Below are positions 11,466-27,895 of a DNA stretch of 41,518 nt, piece after piece. Made by a program: the position numbers and the translations under genes. The notes under the pieces were generated by a model that saw only the letters and a program-made list of their open reading frames with translations, made no database searches and was not told the DNA's origin. Location: assembly GCA_937949245.1 (NCBI GenBank), contig CALEEC010000040.1:1-41518 (forward strand). Direction: 5' to 3'. Source of the stretch: an uncultured Gemmataceae bacterium (GTDB lineage: Bacteria; Planctomycetota; Planctomycetia; Gemmatales; Gemmataceae). Numbering within the stretch: position 1 is the stretch's first letter; every line of letters starts with the position of its first letter.

Positions 11466-14400
11466 TCAACTCGCGGGCATCGTCGAAAAGCCAGGAATCG
11501 GTTGCATGCGTCCGCCCAAGTTGAAGACGTAGATCGGCCAATTCGACGAGGTACACCACTGACGGAACTGCAGCCAGATCGATTCATTCACGATCTGTTC
11601 GATGGTCTTGTTCGGTCGGCCGAGGTTGCTGGCAGAAAAACGAGTATCTTTGAGAAACGTCTTGTGGCTGTAAATCTGCCGACCTTGGGAATCGGTGATC
11701 GTGATAGAAGCATCGATATCCTTCAGAACGACACGATCGTTCCCCGGTGAGGGAGGCGGATTCAACGCACCTGCCGGGAAACCGATGCGGGGCGGGCTAT
11801 CGACACGCTCCAACACCACATCGGACTCTTTCTCTTGTCCCGAAATAACCATGCGGAGGGAGGCATTGTTGGCCACCGTAAAGCCTTCTTGAGCAAGGCG
11901 ATTGGTCAGGTCCGACAGAATCTGCGACCGCAAGACATTCGCATCGGCAACCGACGGTGCGATTTGCAAGTCGATGGCCAGCGACATCCCCGGTTTCAGC
12001 ACCACCTGGGCTGGATCGTGTTGGTCGATCATGGCTAAGACGGATGCCGTCGCCGTGTCCGGTAATCGAACGCCTTGCAGTGTCGGTTGGCCAACCGTCT
12101 TCATCTGCCATAGTCTGCCATCCAGACTATGACGGAACCCACCTAAGGGATTGATATAGGTCCACACGACCATTTTCTGCTTCAGATCGATCAACCGCGA
12201 GTGATCGGCCAGGAGGTAGCGGTCGTTACAAAAGATCAGCGCGCCGTTGGAGATGCTCGGCGTAGGGAACATCGTGGTCACTTTCCCATCTTCCAGGTTG
12301 CCCACAGCCGTGACAGGGCGCGTGTTCGCTTGACCACTGATGGCGAACCGCTTGCCATTGGGGCTGAACGCGAAGGCGCTAACTTTGCCGTTGCCGTACA
12401 TGCCGGTTACGGTCGTGACGCCGATCGCACCGCGACTTTCGCCGGTCATCGGGTCGAGCAAATCCCAACGGGTGCCGAGGAAGACCGCTAAAATCTTCCG
12501 ATTCGGGCTGAACGTCGGCACCAAGCAGGCCGTCTGCATTTGATACAGGGCTTTGGCCTCGGCGATGGACCACAGCGTGAGTTTGCCGTTTTTGTCTAAC
12601 GTCAGTAGGCGTTGGTCATCGATGAAGCCAAGCCATTCCAACTTCGCCTTGGGATCTTCGGCAGGGATGAAACCAACCAGGTGTTTCCCATCGTTGGCAG
12701 ACCAAACATCGATGCGTTGGGGAGCATTGGGATCGGTGCAGACAAAGAGTTTGCCGGAGGGACTCAAGTCGGCAACGACGCGGAGCGATTCGGCACCCCC
12801 ACGAACTGGATAGGCTAAATCATTGACATAAGCGAGCCGACCATCGCTCCATTGGTACACCTCCAAGCGAAACGTCCGCCGCTGGGCGGATTTGCTCTCG
12901 CCGATACGCAAAGCGGCCAACCGCGGATCGGGAGGACAAGACAAGGCCACGGCATTGACCGGATCATTGGTTTGGAGCAGAAACGGAGTGAGTCTCAATG
13001 GTTCGGCAGGATCGGGCTTAACGCTCCAACGCGGGTTGCCGTCGACGACAATGGTTTTCACAGCTGAGCGATCGACTGCTTTCGCTGCCGGCAAGTTCGC
13101 TACTGGTGGGGTCGTCGGGGACGTTACAACGGTTTCGAGCCGTTGGCGATCGATGTCGCGCAAAGTCAGGGTGTAGTTCAAGCCCGTGCCTTGCACGACT
13201 TCCAACATTTGCCAATTCGGCAGCATCCGTGGAGGCGTATCTCCCAATCCGGTCATGCGTTGGCTCAACCGGGGAATCGACAACAGCGTGGCACCATCGC
13301 GTGGGTCGATGATTGTCGTGCCACGCACCAGCAGAGCCTTGCTATCGGGGGTAAACTGCAAAGCAAGTTCTTGGTGCCGATAGAACTGATTCTTCAGCAA
13401 TGGGGTGATGTCCCCCGTGCCGATGACCTTTTGCGTCTTGAGATCCCAGGTGGTGACCTGAAATGCATCGCTCAGCAATTGCGAAGCAAAGATGCCGGCT
13501 AAGTACCGTCCATCGGGGGAAAACGCCAATTGCAGCGTCTCCATTCCTAAGTGGAAGGCCCGTTCGGACTCCGGGAGTTGCGGGCAGGGCAGAACGCCGA
13601 TCAAATCGCCGTTCAGACAGGAATAGAAATACAACAAATCTCGTCCATGCGTGACCAAAAACTGCCGGGATGGATGGAGTGCCACCTTGAGAAAAGGTGT
13701 ATGTTTCGTAAACTCCCAAGCCACGGCAAACTTGCTCTCACCATTGCTAAGCGAAACGGCGTGAAATGTCAGTTGAGCACCTTGGCGACGGACATAAACG
13801 ACGTTGTTCTCCGCCCCGAAATCGAAAAATTGGATGGAGTTCCACGGAGTATTCGGAATTTCGAGGTCGGCCGACATCTTGTCCAACGACCACACTTCCA
13901 GATTGCTTCGACCCTGCAACAACAACCGTTTGCCATCGGGATGCAGGACCATGTTCCTCCAAGTCCCTTGGGTTTGCGGTTGGATTTTCAGCACCGTCGG
14001 TTTGCCTTTGGTCACGTCCCACAATGCGAGAGGTTGCCGAAGGTTGCCCGGTCGCCCTAGCAAGACATACGGGCTGGGCGTCGTGGGGAAGGTGACCGTC
14101 TCGTTGAATAACGTCAGGGTGGCTTTGAGTTTCTCCGGCAGTTCCACTTTGGGCACTTCCGGGAGAGGGACTTTCCATGCCGTCGAACCAAACTGAGCCA
14201 GTTCCTGCGATTCGATTTTTCGGCTAGCACCAGGGGCTTCTCGACCGAACGGATGTTCAGGAATGGGCGGAACATCCGGCAAATTCGTCGGTAGCAGTTC
14301 GGTTACGGGAACCGTGGGATTTCCTCCGGGAGGACGCAGCGGTGGGTTGCCTCCGATACCGACCGGATTGCCGGTTTGGGGATTTTTGGGTGGAATGTCG

Positions 14401-14840
14401 GGGAAAACGGAAGCATCACTCGGCGGCTGCGTCGCGGAAGATGTGCCGCTCTCGGGGCGTTTCAGCGAAGATTCCGCAGTATTGGCTGGAGCGACCGCCG
14501 AATCGCGTTTTTTACCATCGCCCATCAAAGCAAAAATCAAACCAGCGACGATCAATAGCCCCCCCACGCCAATGCCAGCATAAATCAAGGTGGTGTTGCC
14601 GTCGGCTGTGCGATCGTCTCCATCGTCGTCCCGCAACCGACGTCGCCGCGGAGGGAGATCCCTCGCGTCGGTTGCAGTGGCAGTGGTGGCACCACGCGAC
14701 GATCGCAAGGCTCGTTCTTCCTCTTGCTCAGGCACCAACACGATAGCTTGGCAGGAACGACAACGAATTTTGCGTCCGCGGACTGCTTCGGAGAAAGTCA
14801 CCTGCTCACCGCATTCGGGGCAAGGCATGTACATGGGCAT
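11466..14840 (-). CDS. Zinc-ribbon / single TM / beta-propeller protein, function unknown
   Basis: A protein of about 1124 residues. It opens with a zinc ribbon (CPECGEQ, then CRSCQAIVLV; two CxxC pairs) like the MJ0042-type finger common in planctomycetes. A basic/acidic linker and one TM helix follow (TLIYAGIGVGGLLIVAGLIF). Next is a Pro/Thr-rich spacer, then about 750 residues of WD40/YVTN-like propeller blades (for example LAFSPDGRYLAGIFAS, FAFSPNGKRFAISGQ). The last 180 residues form a separate alpha/beta region (ILSDLTNRLAQEGF, NASLRMVISGQ). The finger is probably cytoplasmic and the propeller extracytoplasmic. The frame is open to 15023, but the ATG at 14840 (MPMYMPCPE) has AGGA at a good distance and starts just before the zinc ribbon. 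It is the last gene of the seven-gene minus-strand block. It may be a sensor or scaffold, but that is not shown. Confidence 0.82.
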   Translation of the reverse strand: MPMYMPCPECGEQVTFSEAVRGRKIRCRSCQAIVLVPEQEEERALRSSRGATTATATDARDLPPRRRRLRDDDGDDRTADGNTTLIYAGIGVGGLLIVAGLIFALMGDGKKRDSAVAPANTAESSLKRPESGTSSATQPPSDASVFPDIPPKNPQTGNPVGIGGNPPLRPPGGNPTVPVTELLPTNLPDVPPIPEHPFGREAPGASRKIESQELAQFGSTAWKVPLPEVPKVELPEKLKATLTLFNETVTFPTTPSPYVLLGRPGNLRQPLALWDVTKGKPTVLKIQPQTQGTWRNMVLHPDGKRLLLQGRSNLEVWSLDKMSADLEIPNTPWNSIQFFDFGAENNVVYVRRQGAQLTFHAVSLSNGESKFAVAWEFTKHTPFLKVALHPSRQFLVTHGRDLLYFYSCLNGDLIGVLPCPQLPESERAFHLGMETLQLAFSPDGRYLAGIFASQLLSDAFQVTTWDLKTQKVIGTGDITPLLKNQFYRHQELALQFTPDSKALLVRGTTIIDPRDGATLLSIPRLSQRMTGLGDTPPRMLPNWQMLEVVQGTGLNYTLTLRDIDRQRLETVVTSPTTPPVANLPAAKAVDRSAVKTIVVDGNPRWSVKPDPAEPLRLTPFLLQTNDPVNAVALSCPPDPRLAALRIGESKSAQRRTFRLEVYQWSDGRLAYVNDLAYPVRGGAESLRVVADLSPSGKLFVCTDPNAPQRIDVWSANDGKHLVGFIPAEDPKAKLEWLGFIDDQRLLTLDKNGKLTLWSIAEAKALYQMQTACLVPTFSPNRKILAVFLGTRWDLLDPMTGESRGAIGVTTVTGMYGNGKVSAFAFSPNGKRFAISGQANTRPVTAVGNLEDGKVTTMFPTPSISNGALIFCNDRYLLADHSRLIDLKQKMVVWTYINPLGGFRHSLDGRLWQMKTVGQPTLQGVRLPDTATASVLAMIDQHDPAQVVLKPGMSLAIDLQIAPSVADANVLRSQILSDLTNRLAQEGFTVANNASLRMVISGQEKESDVVLERVDSPPRIGFPAGALNPPPSPGNDRVVLKDIDASITITDSQGRQIYSHKTFLKDTRFSASNLGRPNKTIEQIVNESIWLQFRQWCTSSNWPIYVFNLGGRMQPIPGFSTMPAS

Positions 14841-14864
14841 GGGCAAGATTCCTAGCGAATTGCT

Positions 14865-14954
14865 GAGGTGCAGAGAGAGGAGGTGCGGATGGGCACCTCG
14901 TCGCTTATATCCGCCATGTATCATTAGAGCATCTAGCCTACCATGATGGTAGGC
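14865..14954 (-). promoter_or_regulatory. Leader of the beta-propeller gene: palindrome, hairpin and -10-like box
   Basis: A 19-bp palindrome, GCCTACCATGATGGTAGGC (14936-14954, 9-1-9), looks like a dimeric regulator site about 95 bp upstream of the start. A minus-strand TATAAG lies at 14904-14909. GAGGTGC occurs twice (14865-14871 and 14880-14886) and both copies can pair with GCACCTC at 14893-14899, giving alternative stems in the leader RNA. Confidence 0.4.
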
Positions 14955-15110
14955 CAGATCGACGTCGGCAGAAATATTCACAGGGGAAATTGCCCCGAGT
15001 TTCATTCTCCCTCCCGAATTCATCAGGCAATCGCTTGGAGTTGTCGTAGCAGAGCCGGAATTCAGGGGGAGAGCAGGGGGATTGCCTCCATCGCGCTAAT
15101 CGGTCTTCAT

Positions 15111-17276
15111 TCAAATGCGATCGAGAGAATCCATCCAGCGGGCGAGTTTGCGGAGCAACTCCACATCGGCATTGAGATACTCTTTGCCCATGTTCGGCGA
15201 AACTTCCAGAATCACCGGATGTTTCTTTTCGCTGAGTTGCTTTTGGCTTTCCGCAATGTCTTTGGCGATCGGATCTTTCTGGCCAGCAACGACAAAGAAC
15301 GAGACGCGCTGCGTGGGAATCGTTTCTTTGGGGTTGTTGGCCAAAATGGCACCGACCGTGGCCACTCCGCGAATGGTCTCCCGAGCATTGAACCCCATGT
15401 AAAAGGCGAGCTGACCGCCGATTCCCATACCGTGGACGATGATGCGTTGCTGATCCACCGTGTAGGTGTCCATCACTTCCTTCAGATCTTGCAGCACCAG
15501 TTCCGTTTCGCTGGCGGCCCAACCGTCGTTGCTTTGCGCTTTGGGGCCGAGCAGGATGAAGTGATGATCCTCACAAAAATCGGCCCACAGATCCACCATA
15601 TCGTTGAAATCGCGTCCGCCACGACCTGCCGGATGCAACCAGATGATCACCCCATAAGAGATGTTGGGGTCGTAATTTTCGGGGACAAACAGGGAATATT
15701 CGCGGCGTAACGCGGGATTGGTCTTTTTCAGCACCCCGGTTTCTACCTCTTGCATCGGCGCTTTGGGATCTTCCTTCTTCGGTTCGGGCTTGGCCTCTTC
15801 TCTGTCTTTAGGCTTCGGCCCAATCGGCTTCGGTTTTTCTAGAGCTTTCTTGGCAGTTGAGTTGGCAGGCAGACGATCCGGTACATCGTCCGGCATGGGA
15901 GCCAATCGGAGTTTCACCACATCAACAGCGCCGCCGGCTTTGCGTTTGACTTGCAGTTGAATTTCTATGCCGGCTTGCAGACGAGCCATTAGAGCCAGCA
16001 ATTGATCGCGACCGCTGAATTGTTGGAAAAACGTTGGGTTCGCCATCGGTAGTTTAGGCATTGGCTTGGGCGCTGGCCGGGCTGTGACCGGGGCGATGCC
16101 GAGAATCCGGTCGCCGACTTTCAATCCCGCCTGATCCGCGGGGCTTTTCGGATACACATAGCGAATTTCCACCCCCGGTTCGGGGTCATCGCGCATCGGC
16201 AGAATGCCCAGGAAGGGAAAGGCATACGCCGTGGTTTGTCCGGTCAGAACGATGTTGGCCTTTTCGATTTCCTCTTTGCCACGGAGAATTTTCACCGAAA
16301 TGACCGTATTCTCATACATGGGCCGCAGAATGTGCAGCACTTGGGCCATATTCACCACGGGTTGGCCGTTGATGGCCAGGATCTTGTCTCCAGGGCGAAT
16401 ATCCGCTTTCGCGGCCGGTGAGTCGGGGGTCACCGTGCCAATGATCGGCTCCGCGCCGTACATGTCGGCACTTTGGGGAACCACACCGAGGATGCCCGGT
16501 TTGAGATCTTTCCCTTCCTTCAATTTCGGCAGGACCGCGAGAATGTCCTCGAAAGGAATGGCGAAGCCAATTCCCGAATCATACCACTCCACTCCGGCGG
16601 TTTCATCTTGCCCTTGGGGAGAAGCCGGCACCAGAATGCCTTGGATGCGGCCATCGATCGAGATGATCGGACCTCCATAATTGACAGGAGAAACTTTGGC
16701 ATCGGTCTGAATAGCTTTGCCCCAGATGCGGTTGACCGCGCTGATGATACCGATCGAGATCGACGGCGGATGATTCACATTCGGATCAATGGTTCTGCCT
16801 AGAGAAATCGACCACTGCCCCACTTGGATGTCCTTGCGTGGCACCGCCTGCGGGACGGGCAGTCCATCGACATCGGCCAATTTCAGCAAGGTGATCATCC
16901 GGGTCAAGTCCGTGGCGACTTCCTTGGCCGTGGCCCGTTTACCGCCGGGAATACTCACGGTGATGTCGGTCGGTTTGTTGACAAAGTTGAAAGCGCTCGA
17001 AACGACATAGCCATCCGCGCTGACAATGACGCCGGTGGTTGGCCCGACGACTTTACGGATCTGCTTTCCGGTGGCAGGATCGACCCATACCACTTTGTCG
17101 TTGCCGCCGGCCGTTTCGATCCGAACGATGCACGGTGCCACCCGTGCCACAGCAGCTTTGATGGCCGCCTCGGTTTCTTCGTTGATGTCAGGAGCCGGGG
17201 CTTGGGCTTGCACCAAGCAAGGGCATCCCAGTACGAAACCCGCCCATACGACCATCGCAACCCAGGGTTGTTTCAT
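15111..17276 (-). CDS. Inactive HtrA-like protein with two PDZ domains fused to an inactive alpha/beta-hydrolase
   Basis: A 721-residue secreted protein with a signal peptide (MKQPWVAMVVWAGFVLGC...QAQA). Residues about 35-250 are a trypsin-like HtrA fold whose catalytic positions are replaced: His by Phe96 (VVSSAFNF), Asp by Met127 (RMITLLKL), Ser by Tyr200 (SPVNYGGPI where active enzymes have NPGNSGGP). Two PDZ domains follow (about 262-345 and 355-460). A Lys/Pro/Glu-rich linker (470-510) leads to an alpha/beta-hydrolase of the esterase/PHB-depolymerase type (about 525-721; VIIWLHPAGRGG). Its nucleophile elbow reads HGMGIGG, with Gly618 where Ser is expected, and the usual C-terminal His region reads NMGKEYL. 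Both enzymes therefore look dead. AAGGA precedes the ATG. It sits 121 bp downstream of another inactive homologue. Confidence 0.85.
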   Translation of the reverse strand: MKQPWVAMVVWAGFVLGCPCLVQAQAPAPDINEETEAAIKAAVARVAPCIVRIETAGGNDKVVWVDPATGKQIRKVVGPTTGVIVSADGYVVSSAFNFVNKPTDITVSIPGGKRATAKEVATDLTRMITLLKLADVDGLPVPQAVPRKDIQVGQWSISLGRTIDPNVNHPPSISIGIISAVNRIWGKAIQTDAKVSPVNYGGPIISIDGRIQGILVPASPQGQDETAGVEWYDSGIGFAIPFEDILAVLPKLKEGKDLKPGILGVVPQSADMYGAEPIIGTVTPDSPAAKADIRPGDKILAINGQPVVNMAQVLHILRPMYENTVISVKILRGKEEIEKANIVLTGQTTAYAFPFLGILPMRDDPEPGVEIRYVYPKSPADQAGLKVGDRILGIAPVTARPAPKPMPKLPMANPTFFQQFSGRDQLLALMARLQAGIEIQLQVKRKAGGAVDVVKLRLAPMPDDVPDRLPANSTAKKALEKPKPIGPKPKDREEAKPEPKKEDPKAPMQEVETGVLKKTNPALRREYSLFVPENYDPNISYGVIIWLHPAGRGGRDFNDMVDLWADFCEDHHFILLGPKAQSNDGWAASETELVLQDLKEVMDTYTVDQQRIIVHGMGIGGQLAFYMGFNARETIRGVATVGAILANNPKETIPTQRVSFFVVAGQKDPIAKDIAESQKQLSEKKHPVILEVSPNMGKEYLNADVELLRKLARWMDSLDRI

Positions 17277-17397
17277 CGATGAGAATCCTTACAAAGAGGC
17301 TCCAATCTCATCTGATAATGCACAAGCATGCATCAGCCAATGTCTTGTTGTCTCGGTTGAACCACGGTTTCCATCGGTTAAGCCCCACCAGTGGAAC

Positions 17398-18495
17398 TCA
17401 CTTCGGTGGGTTGGCGGCTGGTTTCGATTCGACACGCAATTCGATCGGCACCAATTTCGTGCCGCGACGCACTTCTAATTTCAAAACGGTGGTGCCTGGT
17501 TGGGCACGGCGGACAATTTCCTGAAAGGTGGCGATGCTCGTGAGAGGCTCTCCATCGACATACGCGATCAAATCATCGGGTTGAAGCCCCGCTTTCTCGG
17601 CGGGCGAATTGGGTTCGACTTCTTCGATGTATGCCGGCGTTCGGTCAATTACCTTGGGCACAAACACGATGCCGGTGTAGCCGCCGTAGCCCACTTTCTT
17701 CTCTTGCTTGGGAGTCGGCTTGTATTTGCCTTGCATCCCGAGTAGGACAAAATCGCTGAGCGTTCGCGTAACGACTTGTTCCCCCTCGCGAACTTCAATT
17801 TTGGCCGTCAACGGCATCGCGTAGTTGATCCAAGTATCGGACAAGGTGTTGCGTAGTTCGCGACCGATGATACCGATCAACTCGCCTTTGCGATTGGTAA
17901 GCGCTCCACCGGCAGACCCCGGATTGTTGGTGATGGCATCCAGGAAATACACATCGCCGTTGTAGGGAGCTTCAAAGATTCCCCGTCGACCCGCGAGTTT
18001 GGCAACCGCAGCGATCACACCATGTTGCACCGTCATCGGTTCATCTCGGGTGGCAATTTGGAACTGATTGCTGAAGGCCAACACCCAGTCTCCGGCCGAA
18101 GCCATGGGGCGTTTCGCGGCCTGGACGATGTCAAAGTAGGGGAGGTCGAGTTCTTCTTGGTCGTTGTCGCTTTTCACTTTGACCAAGGCGACATCGAGCG
18201 CCGGTTCCATGACCACCAGGGTGGCTTTCATGCGTCGGCCATCGGCCAAATGCACTTTCAGATCGGGCGTATCCAACAACTGCGAAGCCAAGGTCAGAAT
18301 ATGCCCTTGAGGTGACACCACGATGCCGGTGCCGTAGCCTTCGACGCCGCGTACCCCCCCGGAGCCGAACAATTTCACCATGCGGGCGTTGACTTCTTCT
18401 TGCACTTGCCGATAGGGAATCTGCGCGTGCAGCGCAACGGCAGTGCCCAACAGCATCGCCCAACCCCCTAGCCATGACCAAACACACCGCTTCAT
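17398..18495 (-). CDS. HtrA-like pseudoprotease with PDZ domain
   Basis: A 365-residue secreted protein (signal peptide MKRCVWSWLGGWAMLLGTAVALHA). Residues about 50-240 form a trypsin-like domain: YGTGIVVSPQGHILTLASQLL, where the catalytic His position holds Ser71; LDVALVKVK with Asp101 kept; and TNNPGSAGGALTNRKGELIGI, where Ala195 replaces the nucleophilic Ser. Residues about 265-355 form one PDZ domain (GYTGIVFVPK, VEPNSPAEKAGLQPDDLIAYVDG). With two of three triad residues lost it should bind but not cleave. GGGGAG lies 11 bp before the ATG. The gap to the upstream active protease gene is only 50 bp, so co-transcription is likely. Confidence 0.85.
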   Translation of the reverse strand: MKRCVWSWLGGWAMLLGTAVALHAQIPYRQVQEEVNARMVKLFGSGGVRGVEGYGTGIVVSPQGHILTLASQLLDTPDLKVHLADGRRMKATLVVMEPALDVALVKVKSDNDQEELDLPYFDIVQAAKRPMASAGDWVLAFSNQFQIATRDEPMTVQHGVIAAVAKLAGRRGIFEAPYNGDVYFLDAITNNPGSAGGALTNRKGELIGIIGRELRNTLSDTWINYAMPLTAKIEVREGEQVVTRTLSDFVLLGMQGKYKPTPKQEKKVGYGGYTGIVFVPKVIDRTPAYIEEVEPNSPAEKAGLQPDDLIAYVDGEPLTSIATFQEIVRRAQPGTTVLKLEVRRGTKLVPIELRVESKPAANPPK

Positions 18496-18545
18496 AGTAG
18501 GTCTATCTCCCCGCTGCGAATCCGAGCTGCAAACGCCCCGTTCGC

Positions 18546-20366
18546 TTACTTGGCTGCTGCCAATTGATACGACTTGATCTTCAACAAGGTATAGCGTTTG
18601 TCGCCATGGCGCACTTCGATTAGGAACGGCAACTGGCGACCTTCCCCAATGGGACGATAGTCGTGCAGATACACTTCGCAGGGATCGGTTTCTTTGGCAA
18701 CCGTGATTTCAAATCCCAACAACCGCTGATCCTTCTGCGAGAAGTACCATTTGCCCTGAACCGCGGCATGTTCGGTGCGAAGCACGTCGGTGTCGATGCG
18801 TAGGTCTTTCAGCGACTTGGGTTGGGAGCCGTCCACGGGGAACGGATAAAACGGTTCGGTGCCACCGTGGCTGAAGCCCAATTCAAAGCCCTTGGGGCCG
18901 CTCGTGAGCAGTCGGCGATAGTGGTACATCGCCATCAGCAAGCCACCGCTGTTGGCCGGTTCCATCAGATCGGCATCAGACTGATCCGGTTTGAGGGGTT
19001 CCAGTTCATAGTCCACGTTGAGCTTCATTTGTACGATAGTGCGAGTTTCTTTGCTATCAGCGGCCGTGAAGTTTTTGATGTGCAGTTTCATCGGCCCCGA
19101 ACGATTTTCACTGACGAATTCTCCATCGACGATCCAATCGCCTGTCAGGGTCGAAAAATCCCCCCATTTCGCGAAGCCCGCTAGCAACTTCTGTTGCTGG
19201 AGTTCGTTGAAATAGTAGTTGGCAAACCCTTTCTTCTCCTTGAACAACTTGCTTGCGGGCGAATCCACTTTCGGAGTCGGAGGAACCGGACGAGGCCCCC
19301 CCGGATTCATCGGTTGTCGTTGTACCGAGGGCAGATAGGGCGCTAAACGGACCAAGACTTCTTTGCGTTCGCTCTTCTTGCGGATGGTGACGGGCACCCG
19401 CCATTCCTTGGGGAAGATGCCGAGGATGTTTTTGAACTGATTCACGCTCGAAATCGGACGTCCCGCAAAGGCGATCAACTCGTCGCCTTCTTCGATGCCC
19501 CGCCGTGCGGCGTCGCTCTCTTCTAAAACCACCTTCACCACGACCGCAGACAGATCGGCATCATCTCCCTGCATATCGACGGCAGCTCCCAATGTGGCAT
19601 GATCGGTATCGATGCCGGCTCGCAGGTGACCTAGGAAGTTTTTGATCTGATTGATCGAGATCGCGTAGCCGACGCCCGAATTGATGCGGAAACGTTTATC
19701 TTGAGCAAACGACCCTCGACCGTTGATGCCAATCAGTTCTCCTTGCATGTTGAACAGCGGGCCACCGGAGTTTCCAGGATTGATGGTCGTATCGAATTGG
19801 ATGCAGTCGGTATATTCAAGCAAGCCCCCTTCCGGGTACTGATACCGATTCACCCCACTGATCAGCCCAAAGCTCACCGAGGGCGTGAAATCCGTGGCCA
19901 ACAGGAAGGGATTCCCCATCGCCAGCGACCAATCCCCCACCCTGACTTGGTCGGAGTCCCCCATTTTCGCGAAGGGGAAGGGGGTTCCCACTTTCTTGGG
20001 CAGAAGTTTAATCAACGCGACATCCCCGACCTTGTCTAACCCCACCAAAACAGCATCGTACAGGATGCCATCAGGCAGGCCACATTTCATAACGGGGCCA
20101 CTGCCGGCGACGACGTGGAAGTTCGTTAATGCATAACCTTCGGCATCGATCAGAACGCCGGAACCTCCGCCTTGCCCTCCGGCTCCGAAGACAGCGACTA
20201 CCGAGGGACGTACTTGGTTGATGACCGCGATACGTTGGGCTTCTGTTTCTCGAACCCGAGGCGAGACTTCCGCCGTTTGGCCCCACGGCGCGTTGCCCCA
20301 GGTGAGAATCAAGCCTCCTACCAAGGCGAGTGCCCCAGTGAGCCATCGTTGATAGTGCCAACTCAT
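18546..20366 (-). CDS. HtrA/DegP-like serine protease with PDZ and unique C-terminal domain
   Basis: A protein of about 606 residues with a signal peptide (WLTGALALVGGLILTWGNA). The trypsin-like domain has a complete triad: His84 (YALTNFHVV), Asp115 (VGDVALIKL) and Ser200 (TINPGNSGGPLFNMQGELIGI). A PDZ domain follows (about 270-355; VVLEESDAARRGIEEGDELIAFAG). A Pro-rich linker leads to about 215 residues that I do not recognise (GDFSTLTGDWIVDGEFVSE, ending DKRYTLLKIKSY). The fold of that part could be a lipocalin-like or beta-sandwich module. HtrA proteases act in the periplasm on misfolded proteins. The start is the ATG at 20366, which has AAGGGA six bases upstream; the in-frame ATG at 20387 has none. 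It is the only catalytically complete member of three adjacent homologues. Confidence 0.9.
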   Translation of the reverse strand: MSWHYQRWLTGALALVGGLILTWGNAPWGQTAEVSPRVRETEAQRIAVINQVRPSVVAVFGAGGQGGGSGVLIDAEGYALTNFHVVAGSGPVMKCGLPDGILYDAVLVGLDKVGDVALIKLLPKKVGTPFPFAKMGDSDQVRVGDWSLAMGNPFLLATDFTPSVSFGLISGVNRYQYPEGGLLEYTDCIQFDTTINPGNSGGPLFNMQGELIGINGRGSFAQDKRFRINSGVGYAISINQIKNFLGHLRAGIDTDHATLGAAVDMQGDDADLSAVVVKVVLEESDAARRGIEEGDELIAFAGRPISSVNQFKNILGIFPKEWRVPVTIRKKSERKEVLVRLAPYLPSVQRQPMNPGGPRPVPPTPKVDSPASKLFKEKKGFANYYFNELQQQKLLAGFAKWGDFSTLTGDWIVDGEFVSENRSGPMKLHIKNFTAADSKETRTIVQMKLNVDYELEPLKPDQSDADLMEPANSGGLLMAMYHYRRLLTSGPKGFELGFSHGGTEPFYPFPVDGSQPKSLKDLRIDTDVLRTEHAAVQGKWYFSQKDQRLLGFEITVAKETDPCEVYLHDYRPIGEGRQLPFLIEVRHGDKRYTLLKIKSYQLAAAK

Positions 20367-20419
20367 GATGTTCCCTTCAGTCTTCATCGGAGCGGAAGTT
20401 GAGCGCTGAATCCTGATGT

Positions 20420-21703
20420 CTACTTCAACAACTTGGCATCTGCTAAAATCAATTGATGTCCCAGTTCGATGCCGTCGGCTTCTACCACGATTCGCAATTG
20501 TTTGACGTTCCTGACATCGATCGTCAACGGTTTCGGCCTATCTCGACGACGAATCACTTCATTAAAAATAACACGCCCATCGAGGTCGATAATCAAGCGG
20601 GCGGCGGTATCGTTTTCGACACTGTCATCGACTCCGACGATGCATTTGAACTCTTTGAAATCTCCTTTGAGTTCATAGGCCAAAGCGGTTCGGGCAAGCA
20701 AGCCGATCCCGCGGGGATACTCTTTCCCCTCGATACGGATAGGGTCGCCATCGAGGTTTTTGTCGCGGGTATGGCGAGCGAGCCGATCGAGGGAGTTTTC
20801 TTCTTCGGTAGCGATCGGATCGGCTTCCGACAGATAGAGCAGTTTTCCCGAGGTAAAATCTAATTTGGCCACTTCCGTGGTTAATGCATATTCCATCGTC
20901 AAACCGCAGACAGTGACCACACGGAGGCGATTGTCGGTCAGGGTGAGTTCGGCCGCAGTCAGTATGTTGCGGTGTGTATCGTAGACTCGGCAGATCGTAG
21001 GTTTGACCACGCCGATGGGCGGTTGGTTGAAGATCATTCCTTGCAATCGCGAGATTTTGACGGGGATCTTCTTACCGGAGAGCAATTCAAATTCGATGGT
21101 TTCGCCGGACTCGTCGCCGAGACCGAAAAATCCCTCGGCTCCGTCTAGGCCGCTGCCTTTGCGCATGACGAATACATCGCGTTTGCCACGCTTTGCCACG
21201 AAGTTCCGCCATTCTTGCAGGGCTTTGGGATCTTGAGCGTCGCGTCCGATGGTGAACAACGCGGAAGCGGGAATCGTTACGGTCGGCGTAGGTTTGCCTT
21301 CACCAACCCACAGATCGATCTCGGCCGTCTTGCCTTTGATGCGAAATTTAAGAGCGTGGAGAAGCGATCCATCGACTAGTTCAATCTGATAGATGCGATT
21401 CATCCCTGCCGCGAGGTTCGCGGGAATCGGTTGCAGGTCGAGAATTTGAATATCGGCACTCGCGGCACGTTCTTCACCATGGGCGGTCTTGAGCCGCACT
21501 TCCGCCGAGGTGAGAGCTATCAACTCCCCAACGAGGCGTTTGCCGTTGAGTAACGTCAAATCGGCGGCCTGACTCGAGGAGGCGATCGGGCCAAGAAGCA
21601 TAAATGCCCAGCCGATTACTACAGCAGCCCATCTGCTAGACGAGTTCCAACGACCTCGTGGAACCGCTGGAAACGCACAGGAGTCCTTGGGGAAGGAACG
21701 CAT
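20420..21703 (-). CDS. NPCBM/NEW2 domain secreted protein
   Basis: A protein of about 427 residues with a signal peptide (RWAAVVIGWAFMLLGPIASSSQA). Residues about 48-110 are a small beta domain (DLTLLNGKRLVGELIALTSA), and similar strand-rich modules follow (FELLSGKKIPVKISRLQGM). The C-terminal 120 residues resemble the NPCBM carbohydrate-binding fold: IEGKEYPRGIGLLARTALAYEL, FKCIVGVDDSV, RVIFNEVIRRRDRPKPLTID, KQLRIVVEADGIELG. NPCBM domains bind glycans and often accompany extracellular enzymes. The ATG at 21703 (MRSFPKDS) is preferred over a TTG at 21733 given by the open frame. It lies 53 bp upstream of the active HtrA gene, suggesting one transcript. Confidence 0.82.
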   Translation of the reverse strand: MRSFPKDSCAFPAVPRGRWNSSSRWAAVVIGWAFMLLGPIASSSQAADLTLLNGKRLVGELIALTSAEVRLKTAHGEERAASADIQILDLQPIPANLAAGMNRIYQIELVDGSLLHALKFRIKGKTAEIDLWVGEGKPTPTVTIPASALFTIGRDAQDPKALQEWRNFVAKRGKRDVFVMRKGSGLDGAEGFFGLGDESGETIEFELLSGKKIPVKISRLQGMIFNQPPIGVVKPTICRVYDTHRNILTAAELTLTDNRLRVVTVCGLTMEYALTTEVAKLDFTSGKLLYLSEADPIATEEENSLDRLARHTRDKNLDGDPIRIEGKEYPRGIGLLARTALAYELKGDFKEFKCIVGVDDSVENDTAARLIIDLDGRVIFNEVIRRRDRPKPLTIDVRNVKQLRIVVEADGIELGHQLILADAKLLK

Positions 21704-21740
21704 AGGATTCTCGACACAGTTACTCAGAAACAATCTACAG

Positions 21741-21936: not shown

Positions 21937-23028
21937 TTAGCGAGACGGTTTCCCTTCGGACAACGACTTGAAGTAGGCTTCGATCACCTCGCGATAACGG
22001 GGGGGTAGATCACGGGTCATTTCTTGCAGAGCTTCCTTGCGTTTGTGTTCCGGCATGTTCCCCCAGTTGGCGGCATATTCTTGGATTTTCTTTTCCGTCA
22101 CTTCCCCTTTACCGCCGTTGGTTGCGATGTTGCTATCTTGCATGGGGTTGGGGCCTTGGCCTCCGCCGGGTTTCTGGGCTTGGCCACCTTCGGGGCAATT
22201 TCCACCATTCTTGCCCTGGCCTCCTCCACCGCCTTGCTTTTGCTGATTTTCCTTTTCCTTGATTAGTTCATCCAAGCGGAAGATCACTTTCTTTTGCAAT
22301 TCTTGGGTCTTCTCACCGCCCCGAGCCAGGCCGAGTCGGCGTTCGATGTTTTCCATCATCCGAGCGATGTTATTCAGATCGCGTTCTTCTTTTTTCCACG
22401 AACGCATGTCGAAATACATCAACGTAGCCAGGATCTTGTAGCGGTCTGGAGCATCGACCACATCATCGAGCAACCGAACAATCGTTTTGTTGGCGTCGTC
22501 TTTCAGCATCATTGCGTGTTCGGCGACGGCTTTGTGGAACAGATACGAGGCGGGATCCACCACCGCTTCGGGGCGAGTCGTCTTGAGCGTATCGAGGGCC
22601 ACTTCGTAATCTCGTCGGGTGGTCAGTGCTTTGGCATAGGCTACCGCGAGATTCGAGCGGAAAAACGGCGACAACTTTTCGTCGAGGAAGATCGGAGGAA
22701 CGGTTTTCGGGGCAGGTTGTTCTGGGTCGCGGGCTGCTTGCAATAGTTGATCGACTTCGGGATGGCCCATCGCCAAGCTACGGATGGTTCGGTCGAGTAC
22801 CGACAACGATTCTTTGCTCCACACCTTGTAGAATTCAGAATCGTTCATCTTTCCAATCGAACGCAGCCATTCGGCCGCTTGATTGCGTGCTTCTTCCACA
22901 CTAGCCGTTCGCAACGCACCGAAATGGGTGGGAACCGTTTTGCGTTCTGCCGCGGCAGCAGAGTAGTTCCCAGAAAGTATCAACCCAATGCCTAACGCCA
23001 GACCAGCAAGCCATTTCCGAGAGTTCAC
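21937..23028 (-). CDS. Secreted protein of unknown function, GTG start
   Basis: About 363 residues. The GTG at 23026-23028 is preceded by GGAGGAG at 7 bp and yields a proper signal peptide (VNSRKWLAGLALGIGLILSGNYSAAAA). The frame also contains an ATG at 23082 and a TTG at 23127, but both lack a ribosome-binding site and would bury the signal. Residues about 30-240 are helical and resemble TPR-like packing (SNLAVAYAKALTTRRDYEVALDTL). A Gly/Gln/Lys-rich segment follows (QQKQGGGGGQGKNGG), then a conserved-looking end (PEHKRKEALQEMTRDLPPRYREVIEAYF). I do not recognise a named family. It is the second gene of the block, after the coiled-coil repeat protein. Confidence 0.8.
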   Translation of the reverse strand: MNSRKWLAGLALGIGLILSGNYSAAAAERKTVPTHFGALRTASVEEARNQAAEWLRSIGKMNDSEFYKVWSKESLSVLDRTIRSLAMGHPEVDQLLQAARDPEQPAPKTVPPIFLDEKLSPFFRSNLAVAYAKALTTRRDYEVALDTLKTTRPEAVVDPASYLFHKAVAEHAMMLKDDANKTIVRLLDDVVDAPDRYKILATLMYFDMRSWKKEERDLNNIARMMENIERRLGLARGGEKTQELQKKVIFRLDELIKEKENQQKQGGGGGQGKNGGNCPEGGQAQKPGGGQGPNPMQDSNIATNGGKGEVTEKKIQEYAANWGNMPEHKRKEALQEMTRDLPPRYREVIEAYFKSLSEGKPSR

Positions 23029-23172
23029 AGCCAAGCTCCTCCGCGAAAGATTGATGCGATGAAATAGTGGTTCCGATGTCATGTCTAGGGAAACTCTCTC
23101 GACGTTCTTGGGGCGAAAGCCAGCCAAGTTCGCGTCGAGGGCAGAAAGTTTCAGCGAGGCTAACCGGGTCGG

Positions 23173-24981
23173 TTATTGGTTGTTGCCTTGACCGATGTTT
23201 TTGGTCATGCCGTAGATTTTTTCTTGACGTTCCGCCAGTTCACGGAGTTCGTCGCGAATTTGCTTGTCGTCGGCTTGTTCGCCGGTGTAGCGTTTGGAGT
23301 ATTCGATCGTGCGGGTGTTCAGCCGCAGTTGCAGCGAACGGATCATCTTCAGTTCAGCCAGTTGATCGATCAAGGGTTGTTGTTTCGGGCCACCGCCCCC
23401 ACCGCCTCCGCCGCCCGATTGCGGTTGCGAATTCTTGGCATCCTGCTTCGCTTTCTGCAAAGCAGCGATCATTTCTTGCAGAGCATCGATAATTTCTTGC
23501 TCGATGGCTTGGGTGTCCGACTCGACGCGAACATTGTCGAGGCGTTTTTGCACGTTGATCATGTCCTTGCGGACTTCTTCAAACACTTGCGGGAAGGCCA
23601 CTGCAGAGCCTTCGGTTTCCAGCAACCGCAGGACGATATCTGCGCGTTTGACGATAGCCCCTTCTTTTTCCGCTTGTTCCTTGGCCAAGCGAATGTCGCG
23701 GGAGTCAGGTTTCTTGTCCGCTGTAGCTTGGATGCTTTGGTCAATGCTCTTGGTAGCTTCCTTCACTTTGATCTGTTCACGGAGCATCCAATCGCAATGT
23801 TCTTCGAGCTTCGCTAACAATGCCAGCATCTCTTCTTTGCGGAGTTGATGCAAGCGTTTTTCGAGTTCTCGTTGGGCTTCTTCCAGTTTTTCGATGGCTT
23901 TGTCTTGATTTTTAGCGGCTTGTTCACGGTCGTTCTTAGCAATGTCTTCGGCTGCCTTCTTTTGGTAAGGGACAGCTTCTTGAACTTGTTTCTGACCGAT
24001 GTTATTTCCATCATTCTTCTGGGGTTGCTGAGATTGATTGCCTCCTTGGGAATCTCCTCCCTTGGAGTCGCCGCCTTTAGAATCTCCTCCCTTGGAGTCA
24101 CCGCCTTTAGAATCTCCTCCCTTGGAGTCGCCGCCTTTAGAGTCGCCTCCCTTGGAGTCTCCACCTTTGGAGTCGCTTCCTTTCGGATCGCTATTTTTGG
24201 GGTCGCCGCCTTTGGAGTCGCCGCCCTGAGAATTTTTGCCTTTGGGGTCGCCGTCTTTGGAATTCCCGCCCTTGGGATCTTTCGAGTCTCCCCCTTTAGG
24301 ATCGCCTCCCTTAGAGTCTCCTCCCTTGGAATCGCTTCCTTTGGCATCGCCTTTGGCCGGTTTTTCTCCGCCGAGTTCTCGCGACAAATTGTCGGTCTTC
24401 TTGGCCAAGCCTTCTTGCTCGCGGCTGAGGCGGTTTTTATCGGTTTTTCCAGCTTCCGTCCGAGCGCGAGCGATTTTCTGTTCGCGGATCAGTTTTTTCA
24501 GATCTTCCAGCAGTTTGGTCGTGCGGGCGATTTCTTCCTTACGGTCGTCGATATCGTCGCGTTGCAACAACTCGAAGAGTTTGTCGAGTTTGTTGACAAG
24601 ATCTTGGTTCTTGTCGAGGGCATCTTTGAGATCGAAGGAATTGGGGTTGTCGCTTTTGGCGAGCCGCTCCATCAGGTCGTCGAGCTTACCGAAGCGGGCG
24701 CGAACGCTCTCTTCATTCTTACCACCGCTGGCCTCTTCAAGCACGCGTTTGAGAACGCGATACTTCTTCTGATCTTCGGGATTGTCACTACTCTTGTAGT
24801 AGTTGGCAAGATTGATCAGAGCCTTTTCCAGCTCTTTGTATTCGTTGGAGGTGCCTTTTTGCTTTTTGAGCAACTCGCTGGGGTTGGTTTTGATCGGTGG
24901 CGTATCCTTCGGCGGATCTGCCTGGGCCGATAGTAAGAATGCCGTGGCCAGACCAAACGTGGCCAGCACGCGACGGAGCAT
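23173..24981 (-). CDS. Secreted coiled-coil protein with GGDSK repeat region, function unknown
   Basis: A 602-residue protein with a signal peptide (MLRRVLATFGLATAFLLSAQA). Residues about 25-205 are highly charged helix, probably coiled coil (LEDLKKLIREQKIARAR). Residues about 212-320 are a flexible tract of GGDSK-type pentads. Residues about 330-540 are again coiled coil (KAIEKLEEAQRELEKRLHQLR). A ten-Gly run precedes a final helical part (PLIDQLAELKMIRSLQLRLNTRTIEYSKRY). AGGAGGT lies 7 bp before the ATG, the strongest ribosome-binding site in the block, and this is its first gene. Paired direct repeats lie upstream. No family function is known to me; a structural or scaffold role in the envelope is inferred. 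Confidence 0.82.
   Translation of the reverse strand: MLRRVLATFGLATAFLLSAQADPPKDTPPIKTNPSELLKKQKGTSNEYKELEKALINLANYYKSSDNPEDQKKYRVLKRVLEEASGGKNEESVRARFGKLDDLMERLAKSDNPNSFDLKDALDKNQDLVNKLDKLFELLQRDDIDDRKEEIARTTKLLEDLKKLIREQKIARARTEAGKTDKNRLSREQEGLAKKTDNLSRELGGEKPAKGDAKGSDSKGGDSKGGDPKGGDSKDPKGGNSKDGDPKGKNSQGGDSKGGDPKNSDPKGSDSKGGDSKGGDSKGGDSKGGDSKGGDSKGGDSKGGDSKGGDSQGGNQSQQPQKNDGNNIGQKQVQEAVPYQKKAAEDIAKNDREQAAKNQDKAIEKLEEAQRELEKRLHQLRKEEMLALLAKLEEHCDWMLREQIKVKEATKSIDQSIQATADKKPDSRDIRLAKEQAEKEGAIVKRADIVLRLLETEGSAVAFPQVFEEVRKDMINVQKRLDNVRVESDTQAIEQEIIDALQEMIAALQKAKQDAKNSQPQSGGGGGGGGGPKQQPLIDQLAELKMIRSLQLRLNTRTIEYSKRYTGEQADDKQIRDELRELAERQEKIYGMTKNIGQGNNQ
24051..24170 (-). repeat. 30-bp tandem repeat inside the coiled-coil protein gene
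   Basis: Four 30-bp units start at 24051, 24081, 24111 and 24141. The first three differ at a single base (position 24100), and the fourth at a handful. Each encodes two GGDSK pentads. Degenerate 15-bp relatives continue to about 24350. The near identity indicates recent expansion by slippage or recombination. Confidence 0.85.
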
Positions 24982-25302: not shown

Positions 25303-25719
25303 TCAGCTAAGGGAGCGATGCGAATGACCACAGCATTGGGGGCGATGTGGGGGAATGAACAGAAAAGTGGCGATCACAAGAATCGCAAAGCCGAGATGGA
25401 GCCAAGTGAAGACCCAAGGTTCCCATTCGTAAAACATGATCGAGTGAATCAACCGGCTTAGGAAGGTGTCACCACTGAATGGTTGCCCGGCCTGAGTGCG
25501 GAAAAATTCTTCCCAGATCGTCAGCGGGCAGCGCCAGTCGGCCAATTCTTCTAAGGCTACGATGCCGATTGCGGCTAAATGAGCCAAGCGGAACCAAAAA
25601 TAGCGAATCCAATTCCAACCGAGAATCGCACCGCTAAGAATCAGCACTTGCCCTACCACGACGAAGGCGACGTAGCTGAAGTGAATCACCACCGTCAGGT
25701 CAGCGAGAAATTCCCACAT
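25303..25719 (-). CDS. DUF2784 family membrane protein
   Basis: A 138-residue integral membrane protein with three to four TM helices (LADLTVVIHFSYVAFVVVG, VLILSGAILG, LAHLAAIGIVALEEL, WLHLGFAILVIATFLFI). The DUF2784 hallmark CPLTIWEEFFRTQAG is clear, followed by SRLIHSIMFYEWEPW. The function of the family is unknown. The start is the ATG at 25719 with AAAGGAA six to seven bases upstream; the open frame upstream to 25761 lacks a ribosome-binding site. The C-terminus (HRPQCCGHSHRSLS) adds Cys/His residues not typical of the family. It appears to be a single gene. Confidence 0.85.
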   Translation of the reverse strand: MWEFLADLTVVIHFSYVAFVVVGQVLILSGAILGWNWIRYFWFRLAHLAAIGIVALEELADWRCPLTIWEEFFRTQAGQPFSGDTFLSRLIHSIMFYEWEPWVFTWLHLGFAILVIATFLFIPPHRPQCCGHSHRSLS

Positions 25720-25841
25720 AGGCGTTCCTTTTTCCGAGTTGGTTGCCACCGTTGAGGACAAGAAACGCCGATCGATCGGTCATTTGAGATGATCCCCGAA
25801 AGACTGCTTTTATTCCAGGACAACGCTAGAATTCGACCAAA

Positions 25842-25924: not shown

Positions 25925-27799
25925 TTAGTGATTGAGAATGAACTCATTCGAGTTGAGCAGTGCCCAGAAGACATCTTCCAAGTAGGCTTTGTATCCTACC
26001 GAAGACATGAACTTCGGATCGGTCGCCATCGCCTTTTTCAGTTCGTTGAGGATGATGTCCAACTCGCTGCTCATGTACTTCTTCTTGGTCTTGGGATCGA
26101 CCACCGGGATATTCGCCACCCGTTTAACGTGGCGTCCGAGTGCAGAGAGATATAGTTCGTCGATGGCGAGCACTATCTTCTCGGCATCGTTTTTTCCGAG
26201 TTTGTTGGCACGGTCCATCGCCACTTGGACGGCACTGTTCTTTTCACGGCGGAGTTGGCTGTTGAGTTCTCGACCATTCATCATCAACAGCGCTTGCACG
26301 ACCGTTCCGTTGAAGCTCATTTCGTTGCCTTCATCGTCGCCGAAGTTGCGGACGAGTTTGTTCAACCAAGTATTCTTCAGGGCTTTGCGTTCGTCCGCCG
26401 ACATGGCTTTTTCCGAGTCCGATTTGGTGGCTTCCATCAGGGACTCGAACAATTGTTCGGGCGACATCGCTTTGAGTGGCATACGGCTGAAGAAGGGTTC
26501 TGCTTCAGGCTTGTTGTTCGTTTCGTTGGCAACGTAGCTGAGTTGGTAGGCTTCGCTGTTGCAGATCCATTCGAGCAGCAGTTTTTGATCGTAGTTGTAT
26601 TTCGCGAATTCGGCACCGAGGTATTCCAGCAGTTCTTCGTGGACCACCTTATTGTGTTCGCCAAAGTCATCGACACTGGGTTGTTCGTTCATGCCCCGGC
26701 CGAACAGGTGGCCCCAGATCCGATTCACATAAGCTTTGCTGAAGTTGTCGTGGGTGACCACAAACTTGGCCAAGGCTTCGCGACGGGACTTGGCATCTTT
26801 GGGCAGCAGTTTCCGCTTTTCAGGATCGGTGCTGTCGGCATCTTTGAGGTCTTTAAGGAACACCGCACGCGTCGGTACGACCATGGCGTTGCGGCGTTCG
26901 TAATAGACGGTGCCGGAAGTGTTGACGCTCGGGTCATCTTTCAGTTCGACTTGAGCGACTTGCATCATCATGTCTTGTTGCCGATTGGGGGGCGGAGTCG
27001 GGGTTTTGTCCCGAGCGACTTGGCGGAAAAAGACATTGACGCCCCAGAAATCGGACTGCTTCCACGATGGATTGAACGGATGGTCGTGACATTGCGTGCA
27101 TTGGGTTTGCAAGCCCAGGAATAGTCGGGTGGTGCGGGAGGTGATGGGCACCATGTCGAAATAGCCTTCTTTATCGCGGCTGCCGGCAGGGGTACTTTCG
27201 CCCATTTGATGCAGGATGTAATTCACTGCCCCGTTGTCGTTGGTTTTTCCTTTGGCGGTGAGCAACTCTTCGACGATTTGCTTGTGCGAAGCCCCTTCCG
27301 CGATCTTCTCTTGCAACCAGAGTTGCATTTGATCGCGGTAGACCGGATGGGTATTGTTGCGGGACATCAGCCAGACAGTCCAAAGATTGGACCACATCTG
27401 GGCGTACTCTTGGGCATAGTTCCGGGTGATTTTCCCGGTTCGTCCTTCGGGGATTTCGTATTTCTTTTCGCGGAGCAAGCGATTGATGACGATCTGACGC
27501 TTGTTGGGTTGCGTCATTTTTTCAAAATCGCGGACTTCGTCGGAAGAGGGGATGCGACCGATCAGATCGAGGAAAACACGGCGGAGGAACTCATAGTCGT
27601 TGGCGCGAGGCGATGGTTTCAAGCCGTTGTCTGCCCAGGCCTTTGCCAGCAATTCATTGATCTTCGCCGTTTGCGGGAAGGGAGCCGGCGCGGTGTTTTG
27701 AGCCATCGCGGAAGCGGTGAAGACCCCTCCGAATAGCAAAACACCCAGCGACCAACGGTTCAGTCGTTGTCGCATGGTCAATGCCCAAGTATGTGTCAT
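25925..27799 (-). CDS. DUF1549/DUF1553 domain secreted protein
   Basis: About 624 residues. A signal peptide (RWSLGVLLFGGVFTASAMAQ) precedes the DUF1549 domain (INELLAKAWADNGLKPSPRAN, DYEFLRRVFLDLIGRIPSSDEV). A CTQCHDHP motif with a CxxCH haem-like signature follows (about residue 255). The C-terminal DUF1553 domain has ALAKFVVTHDNFSKAYVNRIWGHLFGRG, then NGRELNSQLRR and a final YLEDVFWALLNSNEFILNH. The planctomycete-expanded family is of uncertain function and is often partnered by a DUF1501 gene. None follows here, because a strong terminator lies directly downstream. The ATG at 27799 has GGAG about 9 bp upstream and is preferred over the longer open frame. A good promoter lies about 100 bp upstream. 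Confidence 0.92.
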   Translation of the reverse strand: MTHTWALTMRQRLNRWSLGVLLFGGVFTASAMAQNTAPAPFPQTAKINELLAKAWADNGLKPSPRANDYEFLRRVFLDLIGRIPSSDEVRDFEKMTQPNKRQIVINRLLREKKYEIPEGRTGKITRNYAQEYAQMWSNLWTVWLMSRNNTHPVYRDQMQLWLQEKIAEGASHKQIVEELLTAKGKTNDNGAVNYILHQMGESTPAGSRDKEGYFDMVPITSRTTRLFLGLQTQCTQCHDHPFNPSWKQSDFWGVNVFFRQVARDKTPTPPPNRQQDMMMQVAQVELKDDPSVNTSGTVYYERRNAMVVPTRAVFLKDLKDADSTDPEKRKLLPKDAKSRREALAKFVVTHDNFSKAYVNRIWGHLFGRGMNEQPSVDDFGEHNKVVHEELLEYLGAEFAKYNYDQKLLLEWICNSEAYQLSYVANETNNKPEAEPFFSRMPLKAMSPEQLFESLMEATKSDSEKAMSADERKALKNTWLNKLVRNFGDDEGNEMSFNGTVVQALLMMNGRELNSQLRREKNSAVQVAMDRANKLGKNDAEKIVLAIDELYLSALGRHVKRVANIPVVDPKTKKKYMSSELDIILNELKKAMATDPKFMSSVGYKAYLEDVFWALLNSNEFILNH

Positions 27800-27895
27800 A
27801 AGTCGCGTCTCCTCGAAGAAGGTGCTAACGTACATTCGGTAGCAAGCAAGCCGAGTCGATTGCAAGGGTTCGTTGCGTTCGGTGGTCGAAACCTG

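Follow-up and report, generated by a model that had tools for sequence, protein, structure and literature searches.

Why are two HtrA-like genes without a catalytic triad carried directly beside an intact one? The question was raised by three adjacent genes (T1, T2 and T3) on a 41,518-nt contig of an uncultured Gemmataceae bacterium (assembly GCA_937949245.1, contig CALEEC010000040.1), the whole of which is referred to below as the window. T1 encodes an HtrA protease, and T2 and T3 are likely to be non-catalytic partners that direct or gate it, with PDZ domains that bind substrate or signal peptides.

Active sites of T1, T2 and T3

Three adjacent same-strand open reading frames (ORFs) with trypsin-like and PDZ domains, the first with an intact triad and the other two without, had been described in an original prediction made from the sequence alone. 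All three ORFs were present at that place and on that strand, and the residues and codons named for each were correct when read on the DNA. The features are as follows (all codons were read on the DNA):

18546-20387, minus strand: T1, HtrA protease with Trypsin_2 and PDZ-like domains and an intact His-Asp-Ser triad
20115-20117, minus strand: T1 His91 (84), codon CAC
20022-20024, minus strand: T1 Asp122 (115), codon GAT
19767-19769, minus strand: T1 Ser207 (200), codon TCC
17398-18495, minus strand: T2, pseudo-HtrA with Trypsin_2 and PDZ domains, oxyanion glycine present, His and Ser absent
18283-18285, minus strand: T2 Ser71, codon TCG, at the His position
17911-17913, minus strand: T2 Ala195, codon GCC, at the nucleophile position
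15111-17276, minus strand: T3, pseudo-HtrA with Trypsin_2, two PDZ domains and a C-terminal alpha/beta-hydrolase-like domain
16677-16679, minus strand: T3 Tyr200, codon TAT, at the nucleophile position
16683-16685, minus strand: T3 Val198, codon GTC, replacing the oxyanion-hole glycine

T1 residues were numbered from the first ATG (20387), and His91/Asp122/Ser207 correspond to 84/115/200 when counted from the alternative second ATG (20366). Asp101 of T2 (GAT) and Phe96 (TTC) and Met127 (ATG) of T3 were likewise read on the DNA. When the three proteins were aligned to solved DegP, DegQ and DegS chains, a comparison that the original prediction had proposed for DegP and DegS, the substituted residues of T2 and T3 fell on the triad positions; for the His position of T3, the match was ambiguous, as either Phe96 or Phe98 could be placed there, and neither is His. 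Judged by these residues, T2 and T3 cannot be classical serine proteases.

The predicted domain architecture was borne out in part. Trypsin_2 scored over the Pfam cut-off in T1, T2 and T3, and PDZ did so in T2 and T3; in T1, PDZ matches stayed under the cut-offs (22.3 vs 27; 21.7 vs 23.2). T1 nonetheless aligned to DegP across protease and PDZ domains, and its structure model has a PDZ-like module after the protease domain. Against NCBIfam TIGR02037, T1 scored 203 bits (cut-off 416), and by sequence it is a divergent HtrA, not a standard Do protease.

Conservation, ancestry and selection

A search of 119 relatives yielded strong orthologues of both T2 and T3 within the family, the order and the class of the window genome. 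Triad columns were then read from ~130 fetched loci, some of them in genomes from other classes of the phylum. The T1 His, Asp and Ser were kept in all 87 class-level rows having letters there, the Ser was found in 116/116 rows overall, and every complete orthologue had the full triad. No full triad was seen in T2 (0/125 orthologues), in which the nucleophile column held Ser in two rows and the His column held His in one, never both together; otherwise these columns varied freely (A, G, Q, Y, P, H, F and others). T3 had no full triad either (0/123), and its nucleophile column was Tyr in 123/123. Its oxyanion column was Val, Ala, Ile, Thr, Asn, Leu, Ser, Glu or Met, with Gly in 0/123. Genomes outside the class showed the same gene block, with T1 intact, mostly Gln, Pro, Tyr or Phe replacing Ser in T2, and Tyr in T3. 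Because the same or equivalent substitutions hold in >120 T2 and >120 T3 orthologues, they are far beyond chance. Assembly or reading error was rejected, as the residues were seen again in >120 orthologues. The original prediction had named intact T2 or T3 triads, or an unconserved triplet, as findings contrary to it; the planctomycete search returned neither, and the gene order was found with conserved substitutions.

Some of these columns bear on whether T2 or T3 might still be active in an unconventional way, through a different nucleophile or a site at some other point of the domain. T2 retained the oxyanion glycine in 124/125 orthologues and Asp in most class-level ones, and Tyr200 of T3 is invariant, all of which would fit such activity. 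It is improbable nevertheless, since the His and nucleophile positions of T2 are unconstrained and T3 lacks both the His and the oxyanion glycine.

When the protease domains were placed in a tree, T1, T2 and T3 were each monophyletic (support 0.98, 0.99 and 1.0, respectively), and T2 and T3 grouped together with modest support (0.84), a grouping that long branches may affect. The three clades are phylum-wide, which argues that T1, T2 and T3 had diverged before the sampled lineages split. By the same sequence comparisons, the trio is older than the window's class and spans the phylum. The original prediction had taken the order T1 to T2 to T3 as running from active to fully dead, and a stepwise loss of activity along the operon would match the residue counts in the window genome alone. 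Three ancient, separate clades with T2 and T3 as a group form no ladder, however, and Asp is missing from T2 as well in many deep-branching genomes, so this history was left unsupported and we give it little probability.

The ratio of nonsynonymous to synonymous substitution rates (dN/dS) was compared between close genome pairs. Values for the T2 and T3 protease domains were mostly 0.01-0.1, like or somewhat above those of T1, which were likewise mostly 0.01-0.1; in one genome pair with almost no synonymous change, T3 reached 0.2. Loss of the catalytic residues would be expected if T2 and T3 were pseudogenizing duplicates of little function, but the phylum-wide clades, the invariant T3 Tyr, the low dN/dS and the full-length ORFs with PDZ domains make that hardly credible, and local decay was refuted by conservation and dN/dS.

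A second tier of T3-like HtrA genes was observed in G124, G123, G359, G271, G156, G382 and G307, some with an HtrA gene nearby; these may be further active/inactive sets.

Gene order, co-inheritance and a proposed partnership

The dominant gene order was G6-G5-NPCBM-T1-T2-T3. All six genes stood in this order at 76 loci, and most of the other loci had a truncated or near-identical version of it. Median intergenic gaps were 1 bp (T1-T2) and 12 bp (T2-T3). The remaining members of the block in the window are:

20420-21733, minus strand: NPCBM-domain neighbor, conserved directly upstream of T1
21937-23127, minus strand: G5, probably exported, repeat-like, with a conserved C-terminal motif (WGxxPxxxR...PxRYRxxIExYxKxL)
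23173-24981, minus strand: G6, probably exported, coiled-coil-type, with SKGGD repeats

T1 and T2 formed a single reading frame in four genomes of three families (L266, L269, L275 and L278). Sequencing error is unlikely to be behind these fusions because two fused genomes of one family share the architecture, and the fusions favor, though they do not prove, physical contact of T1 and T2. Among 294 genomes sampled across the phylum, T2 was found in 46, T3 in 47 and both in 46, and long-form G5 in 45, all within the T2/T3 set (hand tallies of listed matches). T1, T2 and T3 were all absent from twelve family f3 genomes and from the f7 and f8 genomes tested, and all were kept, though not all at one locus, in G050, G094, G096 and G078. 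As far as presence and absence can tell, the three genes are gained, lost and retained together. To the original prediction that the dead copies were kept as partners, these data add selection alongside T1: the genes keep their order, occur together, have low dN/dS, persist where they are dispersed and, in the case of T1 and T2, are fused in some genomes.

In most of 20 relatives, G6 was preceded by genes for a MoxR AAA_3 ATPase, a DUF58 protein, a BatA-type protein (BatA N-terminal domain), a von Willebrand factor A (VWA) membrane protein and a large protein, c0. This arrangement resembles known MoxR-DUF58-Bat (VWA) operons, with the difference that here the six-gene block with the trio comes after. 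Weaker c0-like matches were found in the trio-free f3 genomes, and the MoxR-linked part therefore seems more widespread than the HtrA part.

Several points weigh against an obligate, MoxR-linked partnership. G091 retains a divergent T2 beside G6-G5-NPCBM without T1 or T3. G299 has T1 and T3, and T2 was not found in its fragmented assembly. The BatA and c0 homologues of the window genome lie on contig C3 (18,547 bp), apart from the trio, so the positional link of the trio to MoxR genes is not universal. Finally, work in one pathway could explain the shared operon even if the three proteins do not touch. T2 and T3 would then serve that pathway as independent binding proteins (scaffolds, peptide sensors or chaperones) without ever meeting T1, and the HtrA fold would have been reused only to bind substrates or peptides. 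We regard this main rival as rather unlikely. It would suit T3, in which the absence of triad and oxyanion glycine together with a second PDZ and a pseudo-hydrolase domain points to a binding role, and which is kept in some genomes where it is encoded far off, as well as the persistence of a lone T2 in G091; it does not sit easily with the T1-T2 fusions, the near-zero intergenic gaps or the near-perfect co-occurrence.

Under the preferred explanation, in which T2 and T3 act on T1, one exported active HtrA and two obligate pseudo-HtrA partners would make up a planctomycete module found phylum-wide. T2 and T3 retain the chymotrypsin fold and the PDZ domains yet cannot cut, and would most likely bind T1, plus substrates or peptide signals via the PDZ domains; T1 activity would be switched or directed in this way, with no catalysis by T2 or T3, much as MamO acts on MamE. 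The place of the module would be the periplasmic space, where it would serve quality control as the protease branch of a MoxR-DUF58-BatA chaperone-type cluster. Export to the periplasmic space is suggested by hydrophobic N-termini, judged by eye and not by a signal-peptide predictor. We infer physical association, control of T1 and the link to MoxR function. Since the dead copies have been retained long and strictly, and are sometimes joined to T1, they are probably needed to control it.

A mixed oligomer of T1 with T2 and T3 is plausible, and the T1-T2 fusions favor it. Assembly may be as a 1:1:1 trimer or as stacked homotrimers, and the heterotrimer is attractive because HtrA proteins build on trimers. 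More specifically, the HtrA assembly may be obligately heteromeric: in a 1:1:1 T1:T2:T3 trimer, for example, two dedicated pseudo-subunits would gate the one protease subunit and its single active site within a MoxR-linked periplasmic machine found phylum-wide. This is put forward tentatively, as a possibility.

Comparison with known systems

HtrA proteases are textbook homo-oligomers. DegP, DegQ and DegS (Do/HtrA, MEROPS S1C) share the fold and the Trypsin_2 and PDZ architecture with the trio, though in T1 the second module is PDZ-like, and the triad with T1, but are homo-oligomers of active subunits, whereas T2 and T3 are triad-less. In Arabidopsis DEG5/DEG8, two different HtrA paralogues occur in one complex, with hetero-oligomers built from homotrimers at 1:1 (PMC4877387), unlike a trio with two triad-less members. 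The closest precedent is MamE/MamO, in which an active HtrA is encoded with a pseudo-HtrA (PMC4794232), and active and triad-less HtrA genes were likewise found kept together here. The presence of MamO, not its triad, is needed for proteolysis; its non-glycine residue at position 193 was argued to forbid an active conformation; and selection for active/inactive HtrA pairing was inferred by the same authors (PMC4794232). At position 193 MamO is like T3, whereas T2 keeps the glycine. MamE/MamO has two members, and in magnetotactic taxa MamO and the inactive copies of MamE arose independently, whereas the trio spans a phylum. MamO also has a TauE-like transporter domain and binds metal, in contrast to the PDZ domains of T2 and T3, the T3 pseudo-hydrolase and the MoxR-linked operon. 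The trio scored far below the cut-off of the NCBIfam MamE/MamO models (NF040960/NF040961).

Serine protease homologues that lack activity have been tallied in an early survey (PMC2605481), inactive Deg peptidases are present in two cyanobacteria (PMC4877387), and planctomycetes are rich in PDZ proteins (PMC6411480). In the one literature collection that was searched, there was no description of the trio, nor of an HtrA set tied to MoxR-DUF58-BatA clusters. Active/inactive HtrA pairing is already known from MamE/MamO. Planctomycete cell envelope biology is unusual. If the proposal is true, the trio would tie a widespread, poorly understood MoxR-VWA cluster to extracytoplasmic protein quality control in these bacteria, and would be a natural system in which to study the control of a working protease by inactive subunits, with one member carrying an invariant active-site tyrosine.

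The original prediction had overlooked the C-terminal domain of T1, the second PDZ and pseudo-hydrolase domain of T3, the conserved gene block and the MoxR-linked cluster. The T1 C-terminal domain (~235 aa, beta-rich) was confidently modeled; it had no Pfam match, and the top 50 Foldseek matches for T1 were HtrA-family only. T3 carries the second PDZ before the following putative domain:

15114-15764, minus strand: alpha/beta-hydrolase-like C-terminal domain of T3 (~residues 505-721), from weak sequence matches and the model

Sequence support for this assignment was weak (DLH and Abhydrolase below the Pfam cut-off; NF050058 at 43 of 150 bits); its other basis is the confident model and the predicted strand/helix pattern. 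A Foldseek search with full-length T3 returned HtrA matches only and no hydrolase. The nucleophile elbow reads H-G-M-G-I-G-G, that is GMGIG instead of GxSxG, with Gly618 (15423-15425) at the Ser position, and Ser was found in this column in 1/92 rows. The domain is missing from nearly all T3 orthologues outside the window's class and thus looks like a later addition.

The large WD40/zinc-ribbon gene immediately downstream (11466-15023, same strand as T3) was considered as a module member and rejected, as no relative of it was found beside the trio in other genomes. Upstream of the block, a large same-strand ORF (25925-27865) that by eye resembles a planctomycete protein of DUF1549/DUF1553 type and a small ORF (25303-25761) occupy the place of the MoxR-linked genes in relatives. 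In G000 (contig C505, L285 393-2864), a separate 823-aa ORF not orthologous to T1-T3 has two Trypsin_2 matches in one frame. Two G5 orthologues (L255 7033-8754 and L263 1235-3289) have an N-terminal alpha/beta-hydrolase-like region weakly matching the T3 C-terminal domain, a hint of movement of this domain among members of the module.

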